Source: a virus
Direction: 5' to 3' (one strand)
Virus record (IMG/VR): IMGVR_UViG_3300046777_001651
Location: 1-24,331 of that record
DNA: 24,331 bases
The notes below the pieces were generated by a model. That model was not told the origin of the DNA. It worked only from the letters and a program-made list of their open reading frames with translations, and did no database searches. The position numbers were made by a program, and so were the translations under genes. Positions 1,659 to 22,213 of this stretch are shown here, piece by piece; positions within the stretch are counted from its first letter, which is position 1; each line of letters begins with the position of its first letter.

Positions 1659-1907
1659 TTAGACTTCTTCATCAGACTTACTTTTTGCTTTGCTAAAAAT
1701 TGACTCAATTTCTTTCTCATCAAGTTTTCCATCATCAAGAAAAGCATTAGCAAGCCCCTCTACCACCTTTGCTACTCCACCAATTCCAGCCATAAAAATA
1801 GCCTTTGGAAGACTGACTCCAGCGACAGCCCCAGCTCCAATAACCCCTAGACCCGAAGCTCCGAATACAGCAAGTATTCTAAGAAGAATATTATTTAAAT
1901 TTTTCAT
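1659..1907 (-). CDS. Second holin-like membrane protein with acidic tail (82 aa)
   Basis: A very Gly/Ala-rich hydrophobic stretch (about residues 9-32, ending VIGAGAVAGVSL) leads into a second hydrophobic helix (about 35-56). The charged C-terminus contains FLDDGKLDEKEIESIF, which resembles a single EF-hand-type acidic loop. GGAGG lies 5 nt before the ATG, and the ATG overlaps the TGA of the upstream LPKTG gene (ATGA). In phages, glycine-rich two-helix proteins beside an endolysin are usually annotated as holins. It could be the holin, a pinholin or an antiholin for the 65-aa protein downstream. The acidic loop might sense divalent cations, but this is speculative. Confidence 0.65.
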   Translation of the reverse strand: MKNLNNILLRILAVFGASGLGVIGAGAVAGVSLPKAIFMAGIGGVAKVVEGLANAFLDDGKLDEKEIESIFSKAKSKSDEEV

Positions 1908-3256
1908 TTTTCCTCCAATAATGAAAGGCCATAAAAGAATGCTCCTATCATTAAAATTAAAATTGCCAAAAACATCTTTGGTAAGAATTCACCACCAGTT
2001 TTTGGCAAATTTCCATGACTATGCGTACTATGGTCATGAATTGTTGTAGTTGTTACAACAATTACTGGTGTAGTTGTTGTTGACTCAGTTGTAGTAGTTA
2101 ATTGAACAGTTGTTGATGGAGCCAATGTCGTTGTTGGAGCAATCGTCGTTGTTGTTGGGGGCGCAGTTGTTGTCGTTGGAGGATTCCAAGAAACAGTTGC
2201 TGATACAGTTTTTGCTACTCCGTTAACTGTCGCTGTTGCTGTATACACAGCCGTTCCAACCGAGTTTGTTCTCACTGTAATTGTTGCTATACCACTTGAA
2301 TTTGTAATACCTGTAAGTGTTTGACCAGCATCTGGTCCACTACTTACCGTTACAGTAACGGTAACTCCTGCCTGTGGAACACCGGCAAGTGTTTGTGCTG
2401 TTGCAGTAATTGTTAAATCTTCACCAGCGTTTGGGTTCTGCGGAGATATTGCCAATGTAAAAGAGCTTGGTAGCGAAACAGATCCACCACCGATTGAAAC
2501 TGCTTTTCTGGTACTTGACATTGTTGGATATGGATAGTCAACAAGTGTCTTGAGTGTTCCGACATTGCCAGTAAAATAACCATGCCAACAAGCTGCAACA
2601 ATTGTATTATTCAGATTAAAATCTGCAATACCATCAGATGTTGCTTCTGGACCACCATTGCAGCCTCCATTGTTATAGACAGCACTTGGAAGAAGCGCTG
2701 TAAGCCAGCCATATGTTCCATTATTTGCAAATAAACCACCACCAGAATTCACGAAGTCAGCAATTTTTTCTGCATTATTGGTGAACAATGTTTCCTTAGA
2801 AGCGCTTCTTGACCAGTTATCTGGAATCCAGATGAGTGCTGGGGTTGCAGAAGTGATTGTCGTAGAGAAGAACGAACTGATTTGTGCGTCTGTCGTATAG
2901 AAATCAACACTTGGTGCTGTAGTGAATTCACCAAGATATTCAGAGAGTTTTGATGCCCAAGAAGCACCACAGGAGTTATTTCCTCCATTAGAACCCAAAA
3001 TGGCGATGTGTCCATTGTTTGGGTTTATTGCACCATCATGAACTTTCTTTAGAACACGGGCAATGTATTGACCAGTCGATTCATAACCTGAGTGGCATAC
3101 AGGGTCCATTCCGTCTAAAACAATTGGACCACCTCCAGTTGCTTTAGCACCTCCAACAAGCTGGATAACTGAACTATTTGTTGGCCAAGGAATAAAAAGG
3201 CTAAGTGCAGTCACAATGGATAATCCATAAATTAATTTATAAATTCTATTCTTCAT
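1904..3256 (-). CDS. Secreted, LPKTG-anchored Ig-like surface protein (450 aa)
   Basis: I start the gene at 3256 because AAGAAGG lies 6 nt upstream; two earlier in-frame ATGs fit the ribosome site less well. A signal peptide (residues 1 to about 28) is followed by a Cys-containing globular domain of about 230 residues, including ALIWIPDNWSRS and a GGGLFANNGTYGW turn. I cannot name it with confidence; it vaguely resembles ThuA/class-I-amidotransferase-like Rossmann folds. Next come an Ig-like repeat of the Big_1 type (about 266-358), a Thr/Pro linker (361-406), a His-rich patch (HDHSTHSHGN), LPKTGG at 417-422 and a terminal membrane helix (about 427-446). This is a sortase-type wall-sorting layout, although the tail ends LLEEK rather than the usual basic cluster. 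It is unusual in a phage lysis region. Confidence 0.75.
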   Translation of the reverse strand: MKNRIYKLIYGLSIVTALSLFIPWPTNSSVIQLVGGAKATGGGPIVLDGMDPVCHSGYESTGQYIARVLKKVHDGAINPNNGHIAILGSNGGNNSCGASWASKLSEYLGEFTTAPSVDFYTTDAQISSFFSTTITSATPALIWIPDNWSRSASKETLFTNNAEKIADFVNSGGGLFANNGTYGWLTALLPSAVYNNGGCNGGPEATSDGIADFNLNNTIVAACWHGYFTGNVGTLKTLVDYPYPTMSSTRKAVSIGGGSVSLPSSFTLAISPQNPNAGEDLTITATAQTLAGVPQAGVTVTVTVSSGPDAGQTLTGITNSSGIATITVRTNSVGTAVYTATATVNGVAKTVSATVSWNPPTTTTAPPTTTTIAPTTTLAPSTTVQLTTTTESTTTTPVIVVTTTTIHDHSTHSHGNLPKTGGEFLPKMFLAILILMIGAFFYGLSLLEEK

Positions 3257-3422
3257 TGTCATCCTTCTTAATAATTGTTCCAAACATATGAACAGCAAAT
3301 GCTGCTACTGTGAGCCATAGCCCATAAGTTCTTGTTTGACCAGATAATGTAATGATTACAATTACACCTCCAGATATAGTCCACGCAAGAGCGTGAAGTT
3401 CTCTTAGTATTTTTTTTACCAT
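3246..3422 (-). CDS. Small two-helix membrane protein (58 aa), possible third holin
   Basis: The protein runs from MVKKILREL to KKDDNEE. It has a hydrophobic helix at about residues 11-27 and another at about 31-51 (around TYGLWLTVAAFAVHMFGTII), separated by SGQTRT, and a charged tail. Its ATG overlaps the TAA stop of the PA14 gene (TAATG), and its last 11 bp overlap the start of the LPKTG gene. These couplings and its placement support a real gene. Size, topology and position fit a holin or a spanin-like/lysis accessory protein. An unrelated frame covers much of the same region but lacks these links. Confidence 0.7.
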   Translation of the reverse strand: MVKKILRELHALAWTISGGVIVIITLSGQTRTYGLWLTVAAFAVHMFGTIIKKDDNEE

Positions 3423-4687
3423 TATTTTCTCCTAGATCGCTTGCTACTGCGATCCTCATTTGAACCAGCATCTCCTGATGGTCCACCGCCTCCTGATGGG
3501 CTACCGTTAGGGGCGCTAGGAGCGCCTCCAGAGGGCATAGGAGCCGTTGTAAGCGTTGTTGTAAGAGCAGTTACGGCAATGACAGCCCTTCTTGTTTTTA
3601 CATCGACATTTGACCCTGTAGGGACATACTCATCTAGCCCTTCTCCAAATATGTCAATCTCATCCTCAAATGCTTCTTTAACCTCTGCTGGGGCATCTGA
3701 CATTGCCTCAACGAGTGCGGCTTCTTCTTGTGGTGAAAGTTCTGAAACTTCTATTTCTTGAAAAATTTCTTTTGCTTCTTCACCTGTAATAGCATTCAAA
3801 ATTTCTGGACTACTAGAGAGTTCTTTTGCTTCTTCAGAATCAACACCATCAGAAATAATATTTTCAATAGCAGCAACTATTTCTTCTTTTGTTAAATTTT
3901 CTGTATTTTCAATTAATTCAGAAACTTCTTTTTCCAATGTTTTAGGAACTTCTGTCGTAGTAGTTGTTGTTGAAGTTGTTGTGGTAGTTTCAGGAATTGT
4001 TGTAGTTGTCGTAGTTGTAGTTATTGATGTACTTGAAGTTGTTGTTTGTTCAAGCGTTGTTGTTGTTTCTGGAACCGTTGTTGTTTCCGGGACTGTGGTT
4101 GTAGTAGTTGTAGTAGTTGTTGTAGTCGTAGTTGGTACAAAAGCTTGTGTTGTAAAAGCCGATTCTGGAACAATTGACCATTCACCATTAACTAACCACC
4201 AGAGTTGAAGCCAAGCTCCTCCTCCATTTTCATAGAACCAAAGCGTTATTTCTTTTGAAACTCCTGCCTCAAATGAAACAGGCTCAGAAACACTTCCTCC
4301 ACCACCCTTATCCCACCAGTCATAAGTAATTTGTTGCCCATCTAAATAAAGAATTGTCCCATCATCGGCTTGAGCCATAAATGAAATATCTTGTGAAACT
4401 TCAGATGTTATAAATCCTTCATACTTAATTACAAAATCCTCATATAAATCAAGAACTGGTATCTGATCGAAATAATGTTCTATTTTTGATGTTGTATATG
4501 TTCCAAAAATTTCAGTAGTTGGAGGAACCGGGGGAGAAGAATTAAAATCATTATTGGGTGTTAAGTTGTTATAAACAGTAACAAGTAGACCAGATTGTAT
4601 TTCTGCTTTTGCAGGAGATGAGAGAAAGCCCAAAATAAGGACAGGGGTAATTATCCAAGAACCTTTTCGAAATCTTAATTTTCTCAC
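3422..4687 (-). CDS. Secreted PA14-domain protein with poly-Thr linkers (421 aa)
   Basis: The start codon is GTG at 4687. A basic N-terminus and hydrophobic core end in PAKA-E, a signal peptide cut near residue 28. Residues about 33-183 look like a PA14 domain: GLLVTVYNN, then ADDGTILYLDGQ (107-118), a WW near 124-125 and LWWLVNGEWSIVP (162-173). PA14 domains bind sugars or sit beside wall-active domains. A long Thr tract with VPETTT repeats (185-246) leads to an acidic helical region (about 250-345), a short segment containing EYVPTGSNVDVKTRR, and a Gly/Ser/Pro-rich tail ending SSKRSRRK. No anchor motif is present, so it is probably secreted or loosely wall-bound. It heads the secretion/lysis group. 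Confidence 0.75.
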   Translation of the reverse strand: MRKLRFRKGSWIITPVLILGFLSSPAKAEIQSGLLVTVYNNLTPNNDFNSSPPVPPTTEIFGTYTTSKIEHYFDQIPVLDLYEDFVIKYEGFITSEVSQDISFMAQADDGTILYLDGQQITYDWWDKGGGGSVSEPVSFEAGVSKEITLWFYENGGGAWLQLWWLVNGEWSIVPESAFTTQAFVPTTTTTTTTTTTTTVPETTTVPETTTTLEQTTTSSTSITTTTTTTTIPETTTTTSTTTTTTEVPKTLEKEVSELIENTENLTKEEIVAAIENIISDGVDSEEAKELSSSPEILNAITGEEAKEIFQEIEVSELSPQEEAALVEAMSDAPAEVKEAFEDEIDIFGEGLDEYVPTGSNVDVKTRRAVIAVTALTTTLTTAPMPSGGAPSAPNGSPSGGGGPSGDAGSNEDRSSKRSRRK

Positions 4688-6179: not shown

Positions 6180-7211
6180 TTATAGAGCACGAAGCTTAAC
6201 ATTCTTACCGATTACATATGAATCAGCATTTTCAATGTTAGAACCAACTCTCATGAATTGTGTGTACTCAATCGTGTCGGTCTTTGGCTTGAACTGACGG
6301 TAAACGGTAATATCACGGTGGATACCAATGATACGGTTGTTCGGGAATGTCAACTCAACATAGCCATGTGAACCAGATGCACCAGAGTAATCTCCAGAAA
6401 CAGTTTCTGGCATGAGTGGTACTTCAATCAATGGAATACCGAATGGTGCCAAACCTGTTGAACCAGCTCCACCATTGGCTCTCATTGAACCTTGGAGGAA
6501 TGCCATTTCACCAACCTGCGACATTGGTGCAGGTGCGCCTGCTGTTGCAGCAGTTGCAGAGTTTGGATTACCCAAGCTATAGATTGTGTCTTGTACAACA
6601 CCGGAACCTGAGAAGAATCTCAAGTCATTTCTGCGCTGTAGGTACTTGGTTGGCAAGTTACGAAGGATACGGTCATATGTTGCTCTCGAAACATTGTTAC
6701 CACCCTCATCAACAGTTACGCCATTTGCCTTTGCAAGCTTAACGAAACCATCAAGAGCCTTAATCAAGCTGTTGTTAGAAGAGGTGTTACCATTGATGAA
6801 CAAATCGTCAAGGTCATTTGCTGTTTGACGAGCCATGATCTGAGCAATGTGATCTTCAAGAGATGCACCCTCAATGTTGTCCTCTAGTGACTCTGTTGAC
6901 ACTGCCCAGTCCAAACGGAGCTTAACTGTGCTAATAGAAACCTTGCTAAAGGTTACTGGCGAGTTTGAGCCAGTATCGGTAGCCTCTGTTGCCTTTGCAA
7001 GCAAACGGGTACCTACGGAAACCTTATCGATTTCCATTTGTGGTGTACGCATGCGAACGACTCTTGCGTTCTGCATGAGAACTGATTGGTCGATGACGTA
7101 ATCAAGGAAACGGTTGGACTGTGCTGGCTTTAACAAACCACCAGAATCATTGCCAACAACGCTCGTTGTAACTTCATCAGCCTTTGAAAGAATTTCTTCT
7201 TGAGATGCCAT
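6180..7211 (-). CDS. Major capsid protein, HK97 fold (343 aa)
   Basis: The length, place (straight after the protease/scaffold gene) and motifs fit an HK97-type major capsid protein. It has an N-terminal helical part, then VRMRTPQMEIDKVSVGTRLL (an N-arm/E-loop-like strand), RLDWAVSTESLEDNIEG (the 'spine helix' start), a long helix with ARQTANDLDDLFINGN, and a C-terminal IGIHRDITVYRQFKPKTDTI strand. The protein self-assembles into the icosahedral shell around the scaffold and is normally processed by the protease. AGGAGG precedes the ATG, which suits high expression. No accessory Ig domain is visible. Confidence 0.9.
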   Translation of the reverse strand: MASQEEILSKADEVTTSVVGNDSGGLLKPAQSNRFLDYVIDQSVLMQNARVVRMRTPQMEIDKVSVGTRLLAKATEATDTGSNSPVTFSKVSISTVKLRLDWAVSTESLEDNIEGASLEDHIAQIMARQTANDLDDLFINGNTSSNNSLIKALDGFVKLAKANGVTVDEGGNNVSRATYDRILRNLPTKYLQRRNDLRFFSGSGVVQDTIYSLGNPNSATAATAGAPAPMSQVGEMAFLQGSMRANGGAGSTGLAPFGIPLIEVPLMPETVSGDYSGASGSHGYVELTFPNNRIIGIHRDITVYRQFKPKTDTIEYTQFMRVGSNIENADSYVIGKNVKLRAL

Positions 7212-7228: not shown

Positions 7229-9352
7229 TTATGACTTATAGCCCAAAGCTTTAATCAAGCCCTGTGGCAAATAAAGGTTTCCCCAAAGTGATTCTGACTT
7301 CTCAAGCTCCTCGCCTTCCTCGTCATCTTCTGGGTCTACACTCTTCTTGATAGCACCAGCTTCAGCAAACTTGCTGACCTGCTCTTCTGTTTCAGCAAGA
7401 GCCTTTTCTGCTGCTTCTAATTTTTCTTGAAGTGCAACTGTGTTGGCTTCAAATCCCTTGGTGATATTGTCGATCTTTTCATTCAGCGAAGCCTCAACCT
7501 CTTCCTTGATAGAAGTAGCGAAGTTAGCTAGTTTGTCATCAACCACAGCACTAAGAGCATCTTTAAGGACTTCAATATCCATATCTTCCTCCTGTGTGTA
7601 TTCAGTAACTTCAACTGTATTTTCTGTTGAAGCATTTTCTTGAACATCTGGAACAAGCCAATTGACAACACGCTTTAAAAGCGATAATCTATTTATTTCT
7701 TGTTCATTCATGTCTAAGACCTTATCATAGTTTACATCATTTTGCAATGAATTGTCTTGCGTTTTAATCAAATTTGATTCCTCCTCCATTTTGTTTATAG
7801 AGGCGAGTAGTTGATCAAGCATCATCGTCATGGAATCTTCTTCTGAGATTTCCTCTGTCTCTTCCTCTTCTTCTTCTGTTTCAACTGAAATTGTTTCATC
7901 AGAAGAAAGTGTTGCATTTAATTGCCAATTAAGTTTTTGATGAGCATCAATAAGACCTGCTAAATAGTCAGCAACTCCCTGCTCATTTTCCTTACTTGCA
8001 ACATCAAAAGCCATTTTTAAAACTTCAATATATTCACCATTTTTTTCATATAAATCAGCAGCAAGTCTTCTTGCATTTGTTGTATCGGTTGCATCTTCAA
8101 AAGACGCAGTATCTTCCATTTCAGAAAGCGTTAATGGGAAGCCTCCAACTTTTCGAATGTTTTCAGCTAGTGGATCCACTGCAGCATATGTTTCTTCATA
8201 AATTTCACCAAAAAGATCGTGAAATTCGCTAAAGTCAATTCCCTGAACATTCCAATGAGCTCTTTGTGCAGAAAATGAAAGAACAACTGTATCGGACAAA
8301 ACTTTCTGAAGTGCTTTTATTGTAGCGGGTTTTGCTTGAACGCTCTTCTTAAGAGTCTTATCCTTCTTCTTCTTTTTGGGCATTGTTGGTGTTATAAAGC
8401 GATTTCCTTGTTCTGGATTCTTGATTCCAGAACCCATACCAGAAGAAGTAACTTCTCCCTCTTTTTCCATTTCAATATCAACAGATTTCTTCTTTGTGTT
8501 TTCATATCTTTCAAGAAGTCTGCGACCTTTTGCAGCAAGTGCTGCAGCATCTTGCATATTTTGAGGCACTGGCTCCCCCCATGCTGCGGCTGATAGCGCT
8601 AGTCTTGTCGGTTCACCATTTGGCTTCTTCATTGGTCCAGATGGATTAGTAAAGAATCTTGTTAAGAAAGAGCCTTTTCTACGCATCTTTTCTGGTGTAT
8701 CTGCTGGACCTTTAACGCCCGGCTTTAAATTTGCACCTTCTGTTTGCTTAAAGTGTCTACGACCAGCAGCAGTAAGACCGCCCTTTGGGTCTTTGAGAGG
8801 TTGTTTTGCCTTTTCTAAATCAAAGTCTAAGTCTTCAACAATATCTAGAATATAATCTAAATTACCTTCTGTGTCCATTTTTACAATATCAACAATTGCA
8901 AGTGCATTTGCTGGATTATCTACCAAGCTAAGCTCTCCCAATGTATATTTTTTAATAACATTAGCCGGTCTTCCTCTAAACATCTTTTCTGTTGATTCAG
9001 CTTTTTCAATAATCTTTCCACCAATAGAAAAAGCCTTAAGTGTTCCATCAAGAATCTTTTCCCAGGTGTTCTGAGCACCTTTGGAAATATAAGCACTCAC
9101 CTTGATTGCTTTATATTTCTCTCCATCCTCGCCTGTAATTTCTACAGGCTCGTAACTTATAGCCTTACCTACAGCAATTGGGGCATGCATTTCACGAATG
9201 TTACCTCCCCAGTTTTTAAATGCTTCAAGTGATGCATTAAATTCAACAATATCACCTGATTTATCAATATTATCAGCAGTAGCAATACCACTTACAATTC
9301 TTTCCTCTTTCTTGATCATATCAATTGGGAAAGATAAATTAAAATTTTCCAT
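7229..9352 (-). CDS. Prohead protease-Dps-scaffold fusion (707 aa)
   Basis: Four modules can be seen. (1) Residues 1-158: an XkdF/S78-like prohead protease, with H56 (EMHAPIAVG), S109 (LKAFSIGGK) and ELSLVDNPAN (140-149) as likely active-site segments. (2) About 185-285: a small basic module, GLTAAGRRHF then RRKGSFLTRFF and LSAAAWGEP, which I recall as DUF6321-like in aquatic viruses. (3) About 343-483: a Dps/ferritin-like four-helix bundle with HWNVQG (366-371). (4) About 500-680: acidic coiled coil with scaffold character, ending near ESLWGNLYLPQGLIKALG. The protease would clear the scaffold and process the capsid; the Dps part is the surprise. GAGG precedes the ATG. The fusion has no internal stop and reads in one frame. 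Confidence 0.85.
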   Translation of the reverse strand: MENFNLSFPIDMIKKEERIVSGIATADNIDKSGDIVEFNASLEAFKNWGGNIREMHAPIAVGKAISYEPVEITGEDGEKYKAIKVSAYISKGAQNTWEKILDGTLKAFSIGGKIIEKAESTEKMFRGRPANVIKKYTLGELSLVDNPANALAIVDIVKMDTEGNLDYILDIVEDLDFDLEKAKQPLKDPKGGLTAAGRRHFKQTEGANLKPGVKGPADTPEKMRRKGSFLTRFFTNPSGPMKKPNGEPTRLALSAAAWGEPVPQNMQDAAALAAKGRRLLERYENTKKKSVDIEMEKEGEVTSSGMGSGIKNPEQGNRFITPTMPKKKKKDKTLKKSVQAKPATIKALQKVLSDTVVLSFSAQRAHWNVQGIDFSEFHDLFGEIYEETYAAVDPLAENIRKVGGFPLTLSEMEDTASFEDATDTTNARRLAADLYEKNGEYIEVLKMAFDVASKENEQGVADYLAGLIDAHQKLNWQLNATLSSDETISVETEEEEEETEEISEEDSMTMMLDQLLASINKMEEESNLIKTQDNSLQNDVNYDKVLDMNEQEINRLSLLKRVVNWLVPDVQENASTENTVEVTEYTQEEDMDIEVLKDALSAVVDDKLANFATSIKEEVEASLNEKIDNITKGFEANTVALQEKLEAAEKALAETEEQVSKFAEAGAIKKSVDPEDDEEGEELEKSESLWGNLYLPQGLIKALGYKS

Positions 9353-9394: not shown

Positions 9395-9658
9395 TTAACC
9401 AAGTGCATACATTGACAATGTTACATTCGCTGTCAGAACTTGGAATTTTGTATAGTCTCCATCAAAAACATTATAAAAATGTGCTTCAGTTTGACCATGA
9501 CCAATCTTTACAGTAAATTTACCATTTAGTTTTACTTCAGCATAATCTGCTGACTGATTCATAAATCCAATTTGAGAAGTATGACGACCAATACTAATTT
9601 CACCGTCTGCGCTTGTTACGTCTGGCATTGAAAATACCAGTGTTTGACCCTCTGCCAT
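9395..9658 (-). CDS. Small structural protein between portal and protease (87 aa)
   Basis: A compact, beta-rich protein with no recognisable signature: MPDVTSADGEISIGRHTSQIGF, then YAEVKLNGKFTVKIGHGQTE and a hydrophobic C-terminus, TANVTLSMYALG. It is placed between portal and maturation protease, directly after the portal stop. Candidates are a head decoration or neck protein, but nothing in the sequence decides this. GGAGG lies 7 nt before the ATG. Confidence 0.55.
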   Translation of the reverse strand: MAEGQTLVFSMPDVTSADGEISIGRHTSQIGFMNQSADYAEVKLNGKFTVKIGHGQTEAHFYNVFDGDYTKFQVLTANVTLSMYALG

Positions 9659-11284
9659 TTAATTTCCTCCTTGTGTAGAACTTTCTACATTATCGCCAGA
9701 ATCTTGATTCTGACCTCTTTCTGCTTGATCTCCAGACCCTTGAACTCCTGATGGAGTAGAGCCTGCATCAGATCTTGATTTTGGTGGTAATGAAGAAGCA
9801 TTGTTAGAATTTCCAACTGGTGCTCCAGCATTGTTTTCTTTTTTAACCTTTGTTGGATAAGGAAGCACTTCATCGCCATCCTTCCTTTCTGGAAGCCCAA
9901 CCATTCCTCTGACTTCATTTGGAGACATAACCTCTGTTCTAAGATATCTGTCATAGATTCTTGACTCCATTTCTTCATCCATCAAGTCAATCTTTCTAAG
10001 TTTAAACTGCAACATATCTGTAAATTCAGCAACAATTCTATTAATCTTTTTTTCAATAACAGCTTGGTCTGGGCCGATTACTTGCATCTTAAATGTCTTA
10101 TCTGCATCTCTTGATACTGCGAGGTTTGCATTATCATAAACTCCAACTTTCGGGGCAGGGACTCTGTTTGCAACAAGAATTTCATCTCTATTTGATTTAC
10201 GATATTTATCAAAAGAAGCATCTTGGACTCCGGCCTCTAATTTCTCAAATTTAATATCCGTATCTGCCCCTACTGATGCAGGAATAGGAATAATCAATGT
10301 ACCATGATTTCTTCCTTTAACTTCATTTCTAAAATAATTAACAAGTTCCTGTTTTGAGCGCTGACTTATCTTTGCACCCTTAAGAATAATTGCGTAACGA
10401 GGAATTGCTTTGTTTTCAAAGTAATCAATATTGTATTCTTTTGCAAATTTATCTCCAACAATTGCTGCGGCTGCAGAAACGGCTGAAGGGATTCCGTAAT
10501 AAGTATGATTTGGAGAATACATCTTAAAATGGATAATCTCATTAGGATTCGGATCCATATTAATTGGGTCTTCTGTTTCTGTATCCTGAAAATTTCTAAA
10601 GAAAACTGCTTGAATCTTGTTACTTCTAGAAATTTGAACAAATCCATCACGCTTTCTTCTAACCCTTACCATTGTTCCAGGAATATGACCTATATAACCA
10701 ATTTTTCCAGCATTATTTCTACCAATTTCAAGATAGCCATTTCCAATAGTAAGAACATCTTGCCATACACGAACCATCGTTTCAATTAATGTTTCTTCAA
10801 TATTTAAACCTTCAAAAGTTTCATCAAGTTCTTCTTTTAGATCTTGCAACTGTCTTCTTGTTCTGTCAAGTTTTGCCTCATCTTGCTGCGATCTCTCAAT
10901 CTTTCTTTTTGCTTTTAATGTCTCAACAAATTCATATCCAAGACCAACAGTGTTCATTACCCTTGCATTGATAGCTGCATAATGAATTGCGCTCTGATCA
11001 TATAAATGTGCAAGGTTATCTAAATCATATGGAGGATTAATAATGTCCCATAAAGAATATCCATTAACAACTAATGGATCAACATACTTTGTAGCAGTTC
11101 CGTCTTCACCTTCATACTTTTTCTGTAGACGATGAGCTCTTCTCTTCATTTTTGGAGAAAGAGTATCTATTTTTACATTTAAAAATGGATCATTAATCTT
11201 TTTCTCAACTATAAACTCATTATAAGAAATATCATCTAATTCAAAAGAATTGTTATCGTCTTCAACAACTTCCATTTTATTCAT
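9659..11284 (-). CDS. Portal protein (541 aa)
   Basis: The body matches phage portal proteins of the PBSX/SPP1-like broad group. There is a helix-rich N-terminus with VNGYSLWDIINPPYDLDNLAHL, a wing segment TIGNGYLEIGRN (about 189-200), YIGHIPGTMVRVRRK, NEIIHFKMYSPNHTYYGIPS and a stem/clip with FENKAIPRYAIILKG. RVPAPKVGVYDNAN comes before the crown, which contains LRTEVMSPNEVRGMVGLP. It forms the dodecameric ring through which DNA enters the head. The last 70 residues are a Gly/Ser/Asn/Gln-rich disordered tail. The start at 11284 has GAGGG upstream. The length is typical. Confidence 0.9.
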   Translation of the reverse strand: MNKMEVVEDDNNSFELDDISYNEFIVEKKINDPFLNVKIDTLSPKMKRRAHRLQKKYEGEDGTATKYVDPLVVNGYSLWDIINPPYDLDNLAHLYDQSAIHYAAINARVMNTVGLGYEFVETLKAKRKIERSQQDEAKLDRTRRQLQDLKEELDETFEGLNIEETLIETMVRVWQDVLTIGNGYLEIGRNNAGKIGYIGHIPGTMVRVRRKRDGFVQISRSNKIQAVFFRNFQDTETEDPINMDPNPNEIIHFKMYSPNHTYYGIPSAVSAAAAIVGDKFAKEYNIDYFENKAIPRYAIILKGAKISQRSKQELVNYFRNEVKGRNHGTLIIPIPASVGADTDIKFEKLEAGVQDASFDKYRKSNRDEILVANRVPAPKVGVYDNANLAVSRDADKTFKMQVIGPDQAVIEKKINRIVAEFTDMLQFKLRKIDLMDEEMESRIYDRYLRTEVMSPNEVRGMVGLPERKDGDEVLPYPTKVKKENNAGAPVGNSNNASSLPPKSRSDAGSTPSGVQGSGDQAERGQNQDSGDNVESSTQGGN

Positions 11285-11687: not shown

Positions 11688-13778
11688 TTATGACTTATTA
11701 TTGTCCTTGATAAGTTTGATTTCGCATGAATCTGTCGTGCAATATGACTCTCCAACTGCATCAGCACCCATTCCTGAGTAGATTCCAGCAAAATCAATTG
11801 GAAATAACTTCATTAAACCCTCTTCACGATATTCTTCTTCTGTAATTTGCGTATAAGGCATTTGAGGATATGTAAAATTACCTTGAGGGAGGAAAGAAAC
11901 TGTCTTTAATTGACCATCGTACATATGTAAAACAGTGCCAATATATTGTTTTTCTGTTTCTGAATCAAACGAAATAGTTACAGAGACAGAATTATCTGAC
12001 CAATATCTCTGAGCGACTGCGGCAATTGCCATCTTTTCAAAAATTGTTACATCTTTCTCTGATCGTTTAGCATCAGACTTAATTGGAAAGAATACAACAC
12101 TTGTTGTGTCTGGTGACTCAGAAGCTGGTTCAACTCTGTAGTTAGCCATCTTGAATAGTGGAAGCATTGGGTCATCATTTGCAAAGCGAATTGACCTCAA
12201 GAAGTATTCACCACCTGGAGTCCAGTGAACTCCGGGAGACTCACCAGCAAGAATTGATACAGTTCCAGAAGGTTTAACTGTTGTCATCTTAATTGATTCA
12301 CGAATGCCAAACCATTCAGAATAAATGTTGTCATATCTCTTAATAACTTCATATCCATTATCCATCCATTCACGCAATACAGGAATGCCATGATTGTCAG
12401 CAAAGTTTGCAATACCAGACATTGATGTTCCAATACGGCGATTTCTCTGCATGATTGCATTTGTCTTTTCCCAGTGAGTAGGAAGAAGAGTTACAGTTTT
12501 TGCATAAAGGTATGCAAATTTTAAAGTACGCTTATAGTCTTCAAGTGACTCATGGCGATTTAAATATGTTTCTACGAGCGTACAGCACTCATAGGACTCA
12601 AGTGACTGCTCTGCACAGGGGTTGTATCCAGCAACACGCCAGTCTTTATTATTTGGTGGATCAATAAGACGACCATACTTACGAGACATATCAAGCCAAA
12701 TAACTCCAGGTTCACCATTAAGAGCAATGTTTTCAACAAGATGAGATAAGTCATTACCAACACTTGTTTCAACAGAATTATTACTCATCCAAGCCCAACC
12801 CGGATTTTCTGGGTCATACGAATTTCTATCTGGAAATACTTCAGCGTTCTTAAGATTTAAGAAGTCTTGGTCATCGTGTCTACCAATCAAAAGTTCTGCC
12901 GATCTTCTAACATTGCCAGAAACAACACAAACTCCAATTAGATTTCCAATATCTGCAATATCTTTTCTAGTGAGCTTTTGACCAGCACGACCTTCAAACA
13001 TCTTTCTAATTGCCTTATGAAGTTTAATCAAAGGCTCTGGACCAGATGCAGTACCACCAAAGGTCTTGATAGGCGTTCCTAAAGGTCTAATTAAACTGTA
13101 ATCAAACTTAACAGGATTTTGCTCTGGCTTAAGATAAGAGTTAATCAAATCAACAGTTGAATCTCTCCAACCCTCTCTACTATCTTCAATGATTTGAAGA
13201 ATTTCTGTCTTAATTGGTTGATAGATTGAAAAGTCTTTGTCTGCTCCCTTGTCATCAAAACCAACTCCAACTCCAAGCATTGAAGCCTCCATCAAGAAAG
13301 CAAAAGGTTCTGCTGGATTATCCTTTGTCATCTCAGATGTTGAAACAAAAGCACAGTTTTGTAGGGCAGCAGAGTTTCTCTGGACATTGACCAAAGGAGT
13401 CCCCATAATCCACAAACCACGACCCGGTGGTGTCCACTTAAGATTAAACAAGCGATCAAATGCCTCTTTTGCACTTGCTTGAGCTTTTACTCCATTCCAA
13501 GGCAAACGATTCTTTTTGCAATGGTCTTTTTGCAATGAATACATTCCGTTAATAACACGCTCGCAAACATCAACCCATGTTTCTTTTGTGCCATCTTCTT
13601 TTTTTCTGGAATAAGTTCTTAGAAAGGTAATCTCTCCAACAGAATTTCCAGCAGCGTCTCTATAACCAAAAGGAGCTTTCTTATCTCTGTATGAAGAAAC
13701 AAATTCTTCGCTTAGCTTAAATGAAAAAAGAGGGGTCTTTTCTGTAAGACCACCCTCTGTAGTTAAAAAATTTACCAT
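11688..13778 (-). CDS. nrdJ: Class II (B12-dependent) ribonucleoside-triphosphate reductase (696 aa)
   Basis: The enzyme makes deoxyribonucleotides with adenosylcobalamin and needs no oxygen. Active-site residues are visible (numbering from 13778): C142 in LQNCAF; N386, C388 and E390 in NPCAE; C399 in YECCTL; and the C-terminal C680/C685 pair in CTTDSC that passes electrons. The C388-C399 spacing (11) and C680-C685 spacing (5) match monomeric RTPR from Lactobacillus. VVSGNVRRSAELLIG and TVKPSGTVSILAGESPGVHW are further family motifs. I start it at 13778 (AGGAG 5 nt upstream) rather than 42 bases earlier. Its leader contains competing hairpins described separately. It may feed phage DNA synthesis together with ThyX. 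Confidence 0.92.
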   Translation of the reverse strand: MVNFLTTEGGLTEKTPLFSFKLSEEFVSSYRDKKAPFGYRDAAGNSVGEITFLRTYSRKKEDGTKETWVDVCERVINGMYSLQKDHCKKNRLPWNGVKAQASAKEAFDRLFNLKWTPPGRGLWIMGTPLVNVQRNSAALQNCAFVSTSEMTKDNPAEPFAFLMEASMLGVGVGFDDKGADKDFSIYQPIKTEILQIIEDSREGWRDSTVDLINSYLKPEQNPVKFDYSLIRPLGTPIKTFGGTASGPEPLIKLHKAIRKMFEGRAGQKLTRKDIADIGNLIGVCVVSGNVRRSAELLIGRHDDQDFLNLKNAEVFPDRNSYDPENPGWAWMSNNSVETSVGNDLSHLVENIALNGEPGVIWLDMSRKYGRLIDPPNNKDWRVAGYNPCAEQSLESYECCTLVETYLNRHESLEDYKRTLKFAYLYAKTVTLLPTHWEKTNAIMQRNRRIGTSMSGIANFADNHGIPVLREWMDNGYEVIKRYDNIYSEWFGIRESIKMTTVKPSGTVSILAGESPGVHWTPGGEYFLRSIRFANDDPMLPLFKMANYRVEPASESPDTTSVVFFPIKSDAKRSEKDVTIFEKMAIAAVAQRYWSDNSVSVTISFDSETEKQYIGTVLHMYDGQLKTVSFLPQGNFTYPQMPYTQITEEEYREEGLMKLFPIDFAGIYSGMGADAVGESYCTTDSCEIKLIKDNNKS

Positions 13779-13783
13779 GTGAA

Positions 13784-13868
13784 CTCCTAAAATGTGCGTA
13801 GATACAATGCTACCAAACAAAATACATTTTAGGTATAAATAATACTAGGGTCAGTTAAATGTATTTTG
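13784..13868 (-). promoter_or_regulatory. Two mutually exclusive hairpins in the nrdJ leader
   Basis: Read along the minus-strand RNA, arm 1 (CAAAATACATTT, 13868-13857) pairs perfectly over 12 bp with arm 2 (AAATGTATTTTG, 13829-13818). An overlapping arm 2' (CCTAAAATGT, 13833-13824) pairs over 10 bp with arm 3 (ACATTTTAGG, 13795-13786). Arm 3 contains AGG of the AGGAG ribosome site (13788-13784). Only one of the two hairpins can form. A TAGTAT -10-like box lies between arms 1 and 2 (13847-13842). Confidence 0.6.
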
Positions 13869-15274: not shown

Positions 15275-15277
15275 ATG
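15260..15277 (+). promoter_or_regulatory. Possible leaderless extended -10 promoter for thyX
   Basis: TGA-TAGTCT (15260-15268), an extended -10-like box, is followed by six bases and then the thyX ATG at 15275. No Shine-Dalgarno sequence is seen before the ATG. The same TANNNT-N6-start layout is seen at 4699-4685. Confidence 0.4.
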
Positions 15278-15973
15278 GATTACAAAAATACAGTTTACGA
15301 TGTTTTAGATCATGGAGAAGTAGAACTTCTGGATGTGATGGGTGACGACCTAGATGTTGTTAATGCAGCAAAAGTGTCATTCTCAGCACAGGTTAAAGAG
15401 ATTAATGAAGCCTCTATTGGATTAATTAATTATCTTATGAAGAACAAGCATGCTACTCCATTTGAGCATGTTATTTTTAAATTTAGAATTAAGGCTCCAA
15501 TTTTTGTTACAAGAGAGTGGATGAGACATAGATGGTCTTCATTTAATGAGATGAGTATGAGATATCATGTACCACCTGTAATTGATTACTATATTCCAGC
15601 ATATAACAAAATTCGTAAGCAAGTAGGAAAGCCTGGAGCTTATTCTTTTGAGGAGATTAATAATCCAGAAGTAAAAGATGCCTTCTATTCCATTTTTCAG
15701 AATGTTATTTTAGAAGCAGATAACGCTTATAATAAACTATTGGAACTTGGGGTTGCAAAAGAGATTGCTCGCTGTGTTCTACCAGTTTCACAATATACTG
15801 AATTTATTTGGACAGTTAATGCTCGATCTCTTATTAACTTTATAAGTTTAAGAAATGAAAGTAATGCTCAGTATGAAATCCAGCAATATGCGGAGATTAT
15901 TGAATCTTATTTTGCACAAATAATGCCAATATCTCATTCGGCCTATGTAGAATCTGGTAGAATTGCAATCTGA
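15275..15973 (+). CDS. thyX: FAD-dependent thymidylate synthase ThyX (232 aa)
   Basis: It converts dUMP to dTMP using methylene-tetrahydrofolate, FAD and NADPH. The family motif RHRx7S is present as RHRWSSFNEMS (84-94) followed by MRY (95-97); flanking HATPFEHV (59-66) and the C-terminal NARSLINFISLRN also match. Length and motif order are normal for ThyX. It opens the rightward operon and probably starts on a leaderless transcript. Together with nrdJ it would enlarge the host nucleotide pool for phage replication. The TGA stop overlaps the next gene's ATG (TGATG). Confidence 0.95.
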   Translation: MDYKNTVYDVLDHGEVELLDVMGDDLDVVNAAKVSFSAQVKEINEASIGLINYLMKNKHATPFEHVIFKFRIKAPIFVTREWMRHRWSSFNEMSMRYHVPPVIDYYIPAYNKIRKQVGKPGAYSFEEINNPEVKDAFYSIFQNVILEADNAYNKLLELGVAKEIARCVLPVSQYTEFIWTVNARSLINFISLRNESNAQYEIQQYAEIIESYFAQIMPISHSAYVESGRIAI

Positions 15974-20513: not shown

Positions 20514-20807
20514 ATGTGTAACGAAGATTATTCTGTAATTAGAGACATGCGACAAAGTATTCAAGACTATGAAAGAAATCTTGATATCTGGATTAAGACT
20601 TCAGAGAAGTTTTCATTAGAAGCTTTTTATGCGACTAAAGAAAGAGATATCTATAAAGAATGTTTTCAAGAAATTTTAAGAGCAATTCAAGATGAAGGTC
20701 CAGTACCTCTTTATCATCGTCATATTGTAAGAAAGCATAGAAGTGAATGGCCTAATCTATGGAAAGCTATTGATAAAGCAATTGAACAACTTAAGAAGGA
20801 ACAATGA
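20514..20807 (+). CDS. Helical, coiled-coil protein (97 aa)
   Basis: I use the ATG at 20514 rather than an upstream TTG at 20490, which overlaps the hairpin tail. The protein is nearly all helical and charged: a segment from YSVIRDMRQSIQDYERNLDI, a later IYKECFQEILRAIQDEG, then HRHIVRKHRSEWPNLWKA. It resembles phage accessory proteins of the Ead/ninX class only in style. The stop overlaps the oxygenase ATG (ATGA). Function unknown. Confidence 0.6.
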   Translation: MCNEDYSVIRDMRQSIQDYERNLDIWIKTSEKFSLEAFYATKERDIYKECFQEILRAIQDEGPVPLYHRHIVRKHRSEWPNLWKAIDKAIEQLKKEQ

Positions 20808-21349
20808 TTGATTATATTGAAGACTTTATTTCAAAAGAAGATCAAGATTATATTGAGGATTATGTAAAAGATCCAAAATTTCCATATAGATTCCACAAGA
20901 TTCATTTGTATAGCAATGCAACAGTTTCTAATTTACAATTAACCCATCATTTGTATATGCATGACGAAGATAAAGTTTCTCCTCACTTTCCAATTATAAA
21001 TCCAGTATATAAAAAATTATTGGAAATGTATGGAAATATTAATCTTATGAGGGCAAAGATTAATTGCACCATGCCAGAGCCTACAATGAAGCCATACGAG
21101 GCTCAGCCCCGCCATGTTGATTTAAAATATGACAATGGGGAGCCATTCCCCCATCTTGTATGTTTATATTATATAAACGATTCAGATGGTCCTACATACT
21201 TCTATACCAATCAGGAAAATGCCTCACATAGAATTATCCCAAAGAAGGGTGCGGCTTTAATTTTTGATGGTAGTATTCTCCATGCAGGAAGCAACCCGGT
21301 TCAATATCCTTATCGTTTTGCACTGAATATAAATTTCACACAAGGATAA
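20804..21349 (+). CDS. 2-oxoglutarate/Fe(II)-dependent oxygenase (181 aa)
   Basis: The Fe-binding triad is visible: H104 and D106 in PRHVDLKYD and H160 in ILHAGSNP, with R171 (YPYRFALNINF) as the 2-oxoglutarate anchor. A jelly-roll fold of the prolyl 4-hydroxylase-like/PKHD type is expected; HLVCLYYINDSDGPTYFY (117-134) is a typical strand pair. Such phage enzymes hydroxylate proteins or modified bases. With DUF1599 and ThyX in the same window, a role in DNA-base modification is possible, but a protein substrate is equally likely. The start overlaps the upstream stop. Confidence 0.8.
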   Translation: MIDYIEDFISKEDQDYIEDYVKDPKFPYRFHKIHLYSNATVSNLQLTHHLYMHDEDKVSPHFPIINPVYKKLLEMYGNINLMRAKINCTMPEPTMKPYEAQPRHVDLKYDNGEPFPHLVCLYYINDSDGPTYFYTNQENASHRIIPKKGAALIFDGSILHAGSNPVQYPYRFALNINFTQG

Positions 21350-21350
21350 C

Positions 21351-21578
21351 ATGAGTAAAGAATTATTTGAAGCAGTTGAAACACTTGAAGAAGAGATTGA
21401 AAATATCGCTGAACAAATGCGTCAACAAACCATTATTATAAAAGAGATAGCAAAAGAGCGTGATGCTTGGAGGCGTATTGCTGATCAGCTTGCTCTGGGT
21501 GCAGAAGATTATTTAAATGAAGGAATGTACTACCAGTTGAAAAAAGGCTTAGATATGTTTAATGAGGCAATTAAGTAA
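21351..21578 (+). CDS. Coiled-coil protein (75 aa)
   Basis: Almost entirely a charged heptad-like helix: ETLEEEIENIAEQMRQQTII, then KERDAWRRIADQL and a short amphipathic end. It has no catalytic motif. It follows the oxygenase after one base, and its stop overlaps the next ATG (TAATG). Likely a small oligomerising accessory protein; the family is not recognised. Confidence 0.55.
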   Translation: MSKELFEAVETLEEEIENIAEQMRQQTIIIKEIAKERDAWRRIADQLALGAEDYLNEGMYYQLKKGLDMFNEAIK

Positions 21579-22213
21579 TGCCTGAATTAAATGCAAATAT
21601 CCCCTCCATTGAATGCTATGTTCGTGGTAACTATCTGAGAAATCAGACGGATTCTCACGATAAGTACTTTCCATGCGTTATCTTTGGAGTGACCTCAATC
21701 CCCTCCAGAAGCCCCCTATTTCATTTTTTAATGGAGGATGGCGGTGTTTGGTGGAGAATGCCAATTAGCGCTTTCTGTGCAGAGCCAAACACACCTGAAG
21801 TTGATCTTCATGAGCTGGTCTTATGGAATTCCTTCTCATCACATGTAACGGTTACAGAATTCTATGCCATGCGTAATATGAGGATGACATATGTTTCAAG
21901 ATCGGGTGAATTCGTTAATGGTAAATATCTATTCACATTGGACTGGCATGCACCAGACGACAATATTCTTAATACAGGATTTAGTCAAAACCCCGGTCAA
22001 CACAAGTGCGGACATGTTATAGTAAGAGACGATGGCAACTTTGCCATCCAGCCAAACAATCGGGTTCGTCTTTTTGATCCATCATTCACAACAAAGTCGG
22101 GTACCTTAATTGAAAGAAAGATTAATACCAGACAATGGGATGTAGAGGATGCACTAAAATGGCGGACTTCAGATGATGATAGATATGAATACGGAGTAGT
22201 TAATAATGACTGA
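21578..22213 (+). CDS. Conserved phage protein of unknown function (211 aa)
   Basis: The protein contains IECYVRGNYLRNQTDSHDKY, a CVIFGVTSIPSRSPLFHFLM stretch, GGVWWRMPISAFC, ELVLWNSFSSHVTVTEFYA and YLFTLDWHAPDDN, and ends GVVNND. I recall similar proteins (SIPGR..LFH....G..WRLPI..FC) in many aquatic phages without known function. Its Trp-rich beta strands suggest a beta-sandwich. Its start overlaps the upstream stop, and its last codons overlap the next gene by 8 bp. No catalytic motif is certain. Confidence 0.65.
   Translation: MPELNANIPSIECYVRGNYLRNQTDSHDKYFPCVIFGVTSIPSRSPLFHFLMEDGGVWWRMPISAFCAEPNTPEVDLHELVLWNSFSSHVTVTEFYAMRNMRMTYVSRSGEFVNGKYLFTLDWHAPDDNILNTGFSQNPGQHKCGHVIVRDDGNFAIQPNNRVRLFDPSFTTKSGTLIERKINTRQWDVEDALKWRTSDDDRYEYGVVNND

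Follow-up and report, generated by a model that had tools for sequence, protein, structure and literature searches.

A Dps-Fold Domain Is an Optional Cassette in a Predicted Protease-Scaffold Protein of Tailed-Phage Heads

Introduction

In several viruses the head protease and the scaffold share one reading frame, as in C/Nu3 of phage lambda, UL26/UL26.5 of the herpesviruses and gpO of phage P2, and in C/Nu3 and UL26/UL26.5 an internal start additionally yields the scaffold. To our knowledge, none of these chains carries a ferritin module. The nearest analogy for a ferritin-like domain entering an HK97-fold shell by covalent fusion is offered by the Flp-fusion encapsulins, where the domain is internalized by its fusion to the shell protein (PMC8346489). 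Phage-encoded Dps have been described in Gratiaviridae (PMC8008677) and in Lactobacillus phages (PMC6669764); these published genes encode separate proteins, read as a help against oxidative stress or in terms of host physiology (PMC8008677, PMC6669764), and those of Lactobacillus phages lie near DNA metabolism genes (PMC6669764).

Here we describe a gene on a 24.3-kb virus contig (IMG/VR record IMGVR_UViG_3300046777_001651, whose whole stretch of 24,331 nucleotides is referred to as the window) that encodes a Dps, as those phages do, but inside a predicted capsid morphogenesis protein. The fusion partner of the encapsulins is a nanocompartment shell, while that of the window is the protease-scaffold of a DNA phage, and the window does not encode a Flp-fusion encapsulin, given that the shell protein has a gene of its own (6180-7211) and that there is a portal gene as well. 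A search of the literature outside preprints and most subscription journals returned no Dps-protease fusion.

The head proteases of Stanwilliamsviridae, represented by gp215 of Streptomyces phage Samisti12, have a protease domain about 50% identical to that of the window and share with it the gene order portal, small protein, protease and capsid. Both also continue past the protease in a long C-terminal region that contains AIKKS; in Samisti12 gp215 a candidate internal start stands there at codon 255. Samisti12 gp215 differs in its length of 428 aa, in a match confined to the protease part, and in that no Dps or DUF6321 was seen in it. Since its extension holds both AIKKS and the candidate start, nested scaffolds may be a general trait of Stanwilliamsviridae. 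The Samisti12 locus (L261:3962-5245) is an annotated protease of cultured Streptomyces phages.

We argue, on a slight balance of probability, that the Dps is a capsid-internal cargo, imported by the scaffold and freed by the protease, which would oxidize or sequester Fe(II).

The Fusion Gene and Its Head Module

The fusion gene (7229-9352, minus strand, as are all features described in this paragraph) is an uninterrupted frame of 707 aa, from the ATG at 9352 to the stop at 7229, in the order protease, DUF6321, Dps and scaffold. Residues 3-160 (8873-9346) match an XkdF/HK97-type head maturation protease (phrog_9427, E=1.6e-51, hmmscan); the match to PF04586 (E 0.0097) was under that profile's cut-off. 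The candidate protease triad, which by analogy with HK97-type proteases we take to be H56, S109 and E140, is kept in the 20 aligned family members whose protease is present. The DUF6321 module follows at residues 187-258 (8579-8794; PF19846, E=1e-28) with a net charge of +10, and a literature search found no paper on its function. A Lys-rich stretch at residues 326-337 (8342-8377) precedes the Dps domain, assigned by profile matches, a PDB match and predicted fold to residues 342-485 (7898-8329), which is followed by an acidic linker (residues 487-590; 7583-7894; net charge -24) and by the coiled-coil scaffold domain (residues 591-707; 7232-7582). The latter ends in a conserved tail, GAIKKSVDPE...LGYKS, and its residues 593-665 are modeled by AlphaFold as a 73-residue helix.

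The portal protein (9659-11284, minus strand; PF04860, E=1.2e-31) and a small conserved protein of 87 aa (9395-9658, minus strand) precede the fusion gene, and the HK97-fold major capsid protein (6180-7211, minus strand; phrog_1623, E=1.2e-81) directly follows it, which is the order of a tailed-phage head module. The 87-aa gene is duplicated in L059, L061, L063, L064 and L096. A preliminary description of this DNA, made from the letters alone, had read protease, small basic module, Dps and acidic coiled coil in one chain, and the analysis bears this out, the coiled coil being the scaffold part and the whole lying in a head module.

That description had also allowed for an assembly artefact or a frameshift joining separate genes. 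The same fusion is found on more than 20 other contigs: five contigs of an IMG/VR scan with the whole 707-aa protein (L002-L005 and L050) show the order protease, DUF6321, Dps, scaffold and capsid gene, and a search with the Dps alignment adds L056-L070, L079-L081, L085-L087, L089, L096 and L097, some of these loci being clipped by contig ends or split, and L056 and L059 being re-fetched parts of the L003 and L002 contigs. Among deposited sequences, the environmental phage protein A0A6J5N5R9 (679 aa), titled 'Ferritin/DPS protein domain containing protein', is 53% identical to the fusion protein. With the fusion recurring on many independent contigs and in this deposited protein, an artefact is ruled out. 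All fusion-bearing sequences are metagenomic; no cultured phage with the same fusion was found among 50,697 records, nor was a near DNA match to the window found.

Elsewhere on the contig, two genes on the minus strand (1904-3298 and 3422-4687) encode proteins with Thr-rich runs. One of them has a Big_1-like part and an LPKTG end with a hydrophobic stretch, resembling a sortase signal; in the other, a region weakly resembles PA14. A B12-dependent ribonucleotide reductase (11688-13820, minus strand), a thymidylate synthase (15275-15973, plus strand), an endonuclease V (20804-21349, plus strand) and a ferredoxin-family gene (21578-22213, plus strand) are also encoded.

Fold, Metal Site and Charge of the Dps Domain

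The Dps part matched Ferritin/Dps PF00210 (E=2.3e-15, residues 345-486) and phrog_3636 (E=3.4e-20) in hmmscan, and a phmmer search of the PDB with the fusion protein returned Dps/ferritin proteins (1n1q, E=1.8e-15). AlphaFold, run on a 37-row alignment, gave a pLDDT of about 86-96 across residues 341-480, was of low confidence outside the Dps (mean pLDDT 59.5), and placed helices at 342-368, 374-401, 409-415 (BC), 427-454 and 458-483, so that the predicted structure has the four-helix bundle and the short BC-loop helix typical of Dps. Foldseek matched this part to MrgA (2chp) with a TM of 0.91 at 1.3 Å and VIA-align gave a Z of 22.5, the superpositions on MrgA, B. brevis and S. aureus Dps being at 1.3-1.6 Å with Z about 22. 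The ferritin-like fold that had been proposed at residues 343-483 is hence found by profiles, AlphaFold and Foldseek alike, and the proposed ends fall within a few residues of the measured domain. The BC-helix fold is common to MrgA (2chp), Bacillus brevis Dps (1n1q) and Listeria Dps, and the closest structures superpose over about 145 residues with the H, H, D and E ligands shared; the window Dps differs from MrgA, 1n1q and Listeria Dps by an identity of about 30% and by belonging to a separate phage clade, and from known Dps by the loss of a fifth ligand and by its seat within a capsid morphogenesis protein.

Sixteen diverse phage Dps all keep the ligands H366, H378, D393 and E397 of the inter-subunit ferroxidase-type site, as well as W367. 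The fifth ligand position, which we take to be that of D67 in E. coli Dps and whose acidic residue backs membership of the family without defining it, is G382 in the window and G, S, A or E in relatives. Between the window and L003 the dN/dS of the Dps was 0.04 (dS 1.06), and it was about 0.01-0.13 in other informative pairs. To judge from these ratios and ligands, purifying selection acts on the Dps module as a protein, its metal site being largely kept, and we file it as a Dps-fold domain with putative iron oxidation. Of the functions suggested beforehand, iron binding appears plausible with four of the five ligands invariant, the loss of the fifth speaking against it. The proposed binding of DNA fares worse: a role of the Dps surface in it is not favored, because the Dps core is acidic (net charge -15; phage Dps have a median of -10) and relatives without Dps have the Lys-rich stretch too.

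Cellular Dps from across 84,980 genomes are at most about 30-36% identical to phage Dps, save those of L133 and L134, two contigs in metagenome bins whose Dps fall with the phage ones. Phage and sampled cellular Dps are split by a strongly supported branch, and the inner branching order is uncertain, as the alignment has many rows and few columns. A recent capture from a bacterium was rejected, given this identity to the cellular Dps sampled and the separate phage group, with L133 and L134 as exceptions.

Gain, Loss and Exchange of the Dps Cassette

The IMG/VR scan yielded 54 loci, and the Dps is absent from most of these relatives. L006 has a protease 96% identical to that of the window and no Dps, and it shares 93% of all alignable residues with L003, which has one; L005 (with Dps) and L027 (without) likewise have near-identical backbones. 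The KKKKKESSMTNEIKKESP leader, which precedes the Dps in L005, is still there in L027, and its retention suggests that the Dps was lost in the latter. The Dps modules of the window's family, termed class A, form one clade (support 99/82), while the presence of the Dps switches at least 4 times on the protease tree (8 by parsimony) and at least 6 times on the scaffold tree. Exchange of the cassette is indicated by synonymous distances far lower in the Dps than in its flanks (dS 0.02 vs. 1.3-1.9 for L081/L089); for L108/L113 the values are 0.04 and 0.8-1.2. Judging from the trees and distances, the Dps is an optional, exchangeable cassette in a disordered linker of the protease-scaffold protein. 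As many close relatives do without it, it is dispensable for assembly or infection, and Dps-less relatives of 63, 72 and 106 kb, whose records may be incomplete, gave no other ferritin-family match.

In L067 (L067:1267-2919 and L067:413-1294), where the gene is split, another module replaces DUF6321 and a further domain lies between Dps and scaffold; on account of this replacement and addition, the linker accepts several different cassettes.

Dps in Other Phage Head Modules

A search with the Dps of the phage clade returned 80 Dps loci, including a group termed class B (L106-L108, L110-L119, L121-L126, L128-L130 and L132). The class B protein, mostly 560-690 aa long, has an N-terminal protease-like domain, a Dps in mid-chain and a C-terminal helical region, and its gene lies between portal and capsid genes of other families. 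The N-terminal domain matches a head protease weakly (phrog_18299, 0.0013-0.007), its NHD, LTGSVGG and NQPAD motifs being placed where head proteases carry their active-site motifs. The class B protease and scaffold have no detectable sequence similarity to those of the window, while the Dps comes from the same phage clade and occupies the same place. It is optional here too: scanning with the class B protease, the Dps was present in 8/74 full-length relatives and absent in 66/74 (5 distinct proteins with and 38 without), and L114 and L264 differ by a clean insertion or deletion of the Dps in the acidic linker, with 89% identity elsewhere.

Further arrangements were met in head modules. In L071, L092 and others a protein of 276-288 aa, encoded between portal and capsid, begins with the Dps, and in L073 a 478-aa Dps fusion follows an 886-aa protease protein. 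In L127 and L213-L250 the Dps lies directly after a portal gene, alone at some loci and at others as the N-terminus of proteins of 375-738 aa with mostly unrecognized C-terminal parts. Standalone Dps of the same clade adjoins portal or capsid genes in L105, L127, L213-L215 and L219-L225, and no recognized head gene lies near the standalone phage Dps of L251-L258. A portal, capsid or terminase gene was present within 5 kb of the Dps (≤5 kb) in 116/130 loci and 51/59 clusters (90% identity), a count that describes the phage Dps clade rather than all phage Dps, since the loci came from clade queries, and that misses some head genes, the profiles having been seeded from the same loci. The repeated entry of a Dps into head genes of unrelated aquatic phages suggests that it travels within the particle as this assembles.

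Two observations were made alongside. In L105 (L105:4908-7650) the capsid gene is followed by a standalone Dps and then by a 742-aa DUF6321 protein, so that Dps and DUF6321 are again together in a head module, and in the large-contig phages L127 and L213-L260 the standalone form, of about 155-185 aa, comes directly after the portal gene, as does the N-terminally fused one.

Such a distribution could also arise if recombination in disordered linkers simply lands domains there, the Dps being tolerated and any work that it does being done in the cytoplasm of the host, ahead of assembly. The coming and going of the Dps and the other domains found in the same linker (DUF6321, the different module of L067 and further insertions) agree with this; the strong purifying selection, the invariant ligands and the repeated placement in head modules of different phage lineages do not, and we regard such passive carriage as very unlikely.

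Internal Starts, Scaffold and Candidate Cleavage Sites

The capsid protein has no N-terminal delta-like domain, its TIGR01554 match starting only at profile position 101; because the capsid gene is without such an HK97-type domain, the C-terminal coiled coil is likely the scaffold. An internal Shine-Dalgarno (SD) sequence AGGAGG (7588-7593, minus strand) stands before an ATG at codon 591 (7580-7582, minus strand), the predicted start of a 117-aa scaffold-only protein, in the context ACACAGGAGGAAGATATG. GGAGG lies a few nucleotides before the ATG in all 42 aligned sequences (once a GTG, in L067), even though the residues encoded there vary (QEEE, QEED, QEDE, VEEQ, LEEE and others). The Q codon at this site is CAG in 33/33, vs. 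30% CAG overall, and the core AGGAG/GGAGG occurs in 35/35 distinct sequences, which are related and hence not 35 independent events, against 16% expected from a synonymous codon redraw from the same gene. The sequence statistics thus carry the signal of a nested gene, and the conserved SD and start should give the scaffold alone.

In most Dps-bearing relatives a second site, AAGGAG-6 nt-ATG, is encoded by the Lys-rich stretch before the Dps, and an SD core before a Met ahead of the Dps is present in 13/20 distinct sequences; in the window this site is degraded (AAGGATAAGACTCTT). In class B a GAGGAG-ATG of its own is conserved ahead of the Dps (12/12 distinct sequences, 9% expected), and in L067 and L087 the gene has come apart into two frames, one for the protease and one for Dps-scaffold. 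From these pre-Dps starts, split genes and the class B start, many phages may produce a Dps-scaffold separately from the protease, while in the window the Dps seems to be made only as part of the full-length chain. Three points go beyond the preliminary description: the optional nature of the cassette, its recurrence among unrelated head proteins and the predicted internal starts of translation.

If class B makes a Dps-scaffold chain, as its internal start in 12/12 distinct sequences should lead to, the Dps would be part of the scaffold, and it could be purely structural, its dimer or trimer contacts adding valency or spacing and so tuning prohead size or nucleation before it exits with the scaffold, with no iron chemistry. 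The missing fifth ligand and the position of a domain between protease and scaffold, gained or lost without loss of the rest, are in line with this. A spacer, nonetheless, should have no need of a conserved ferritin active site, of which four ligands never vary among the 16 diverse phage Dps, and the same clade occurs as standalone proteins beside portal or capsid genes (L105, L127, L213-L215 and L219-L225). We consider the structural role unlikely, and the earlier idea of a folded spacer only is likewise disfavored by the dN/dS of 0.04, the invariant ligands and the standalone homologues in head clusters.

KKSVDPE is present in 21/21 aligned sequences, further K(K)S motifs lie near module ends, and Samisti12 has AIKKS. 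HK97 is cut at K103/S104 (PMC10275583), and it is by resemblance to this cut that we put forward the K(K)S motifs, as a suggestion, as cleavage sites. In linkers so rich in Lys and Ser, K-S pairs also arise often by chance.

A Dps cut free in the prohead could as well be ejected with the DNA, as an injected early effector that guards genome and host from iron and peroxide. T4-like phages do eject internal proteins, and the architecture fits this equally; phage Dps is, moreover, otherwise discussed as an anti-oxidative help in infection (PMC8008677). A folded four-helix bundle, however, would have to pass portal and tail, and both the cut between Dps and scaffold and the ejection are putative, so that a primary role after injection seems to us distinctly unlikely.

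Proposed Route Into the Prohead and Implications

The reading that we slightly favor, of Dps as an internal cargo, would proceed as follows. The coiled coil would supply the scaffold missing from the delta-less capsid protein and co-assemble with it, and the chains bearing the N-terminal part would bring protease, DUF6321 and Dps into the prohead. There the protease would cleave these chains, with the conserved K(K)-S motifs as possible cut sites, and the scaffold would exit, leaving the Dps as internal cargo beside the DNA unless it is ejected. A retained Dps might oxidize or sequester Fe(II), protecting the packaged DNA, or be delivered with it. Because the extra pre-Dps start is degraded in the window, the copy number of Dps in this phage would follow that of the protease-bearing chain. 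The preliminary description had the domain packed inside the prohead, which fits the architecture and the gene neighborhood; it is from these two that we infer its location in the head, with the iron function as putative.

More tentatively, and with a probability that we would place below even, a general capsid-cargo system of tailed phages can be envisaged, in which the disordered protease-scaffold linker or a portal- or capsid-adjacent gene would act as a docking slot for folded cargo, Dps above all. Such cargo would enter the prohead, be set free there by the phage protease and then either stay or leave with the genome, and virions with Dps would be iron-handling particles, equivalent in phages to encapsulins loaded with ferritin.

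If the cargo reading is true, phage virions would gain an internal ferritin-type activity, phage heads would be linked mechanistically to ferritin-loaded encapsulins, and a natural route for loading proteins into phage heads would be at hand, with the near-identical natural pairs with and without the cassette as ready-made controls. It bears on whether the virions of aquatic phages carry iron, and on how packaged DNA escapes iron-driven oxidation.
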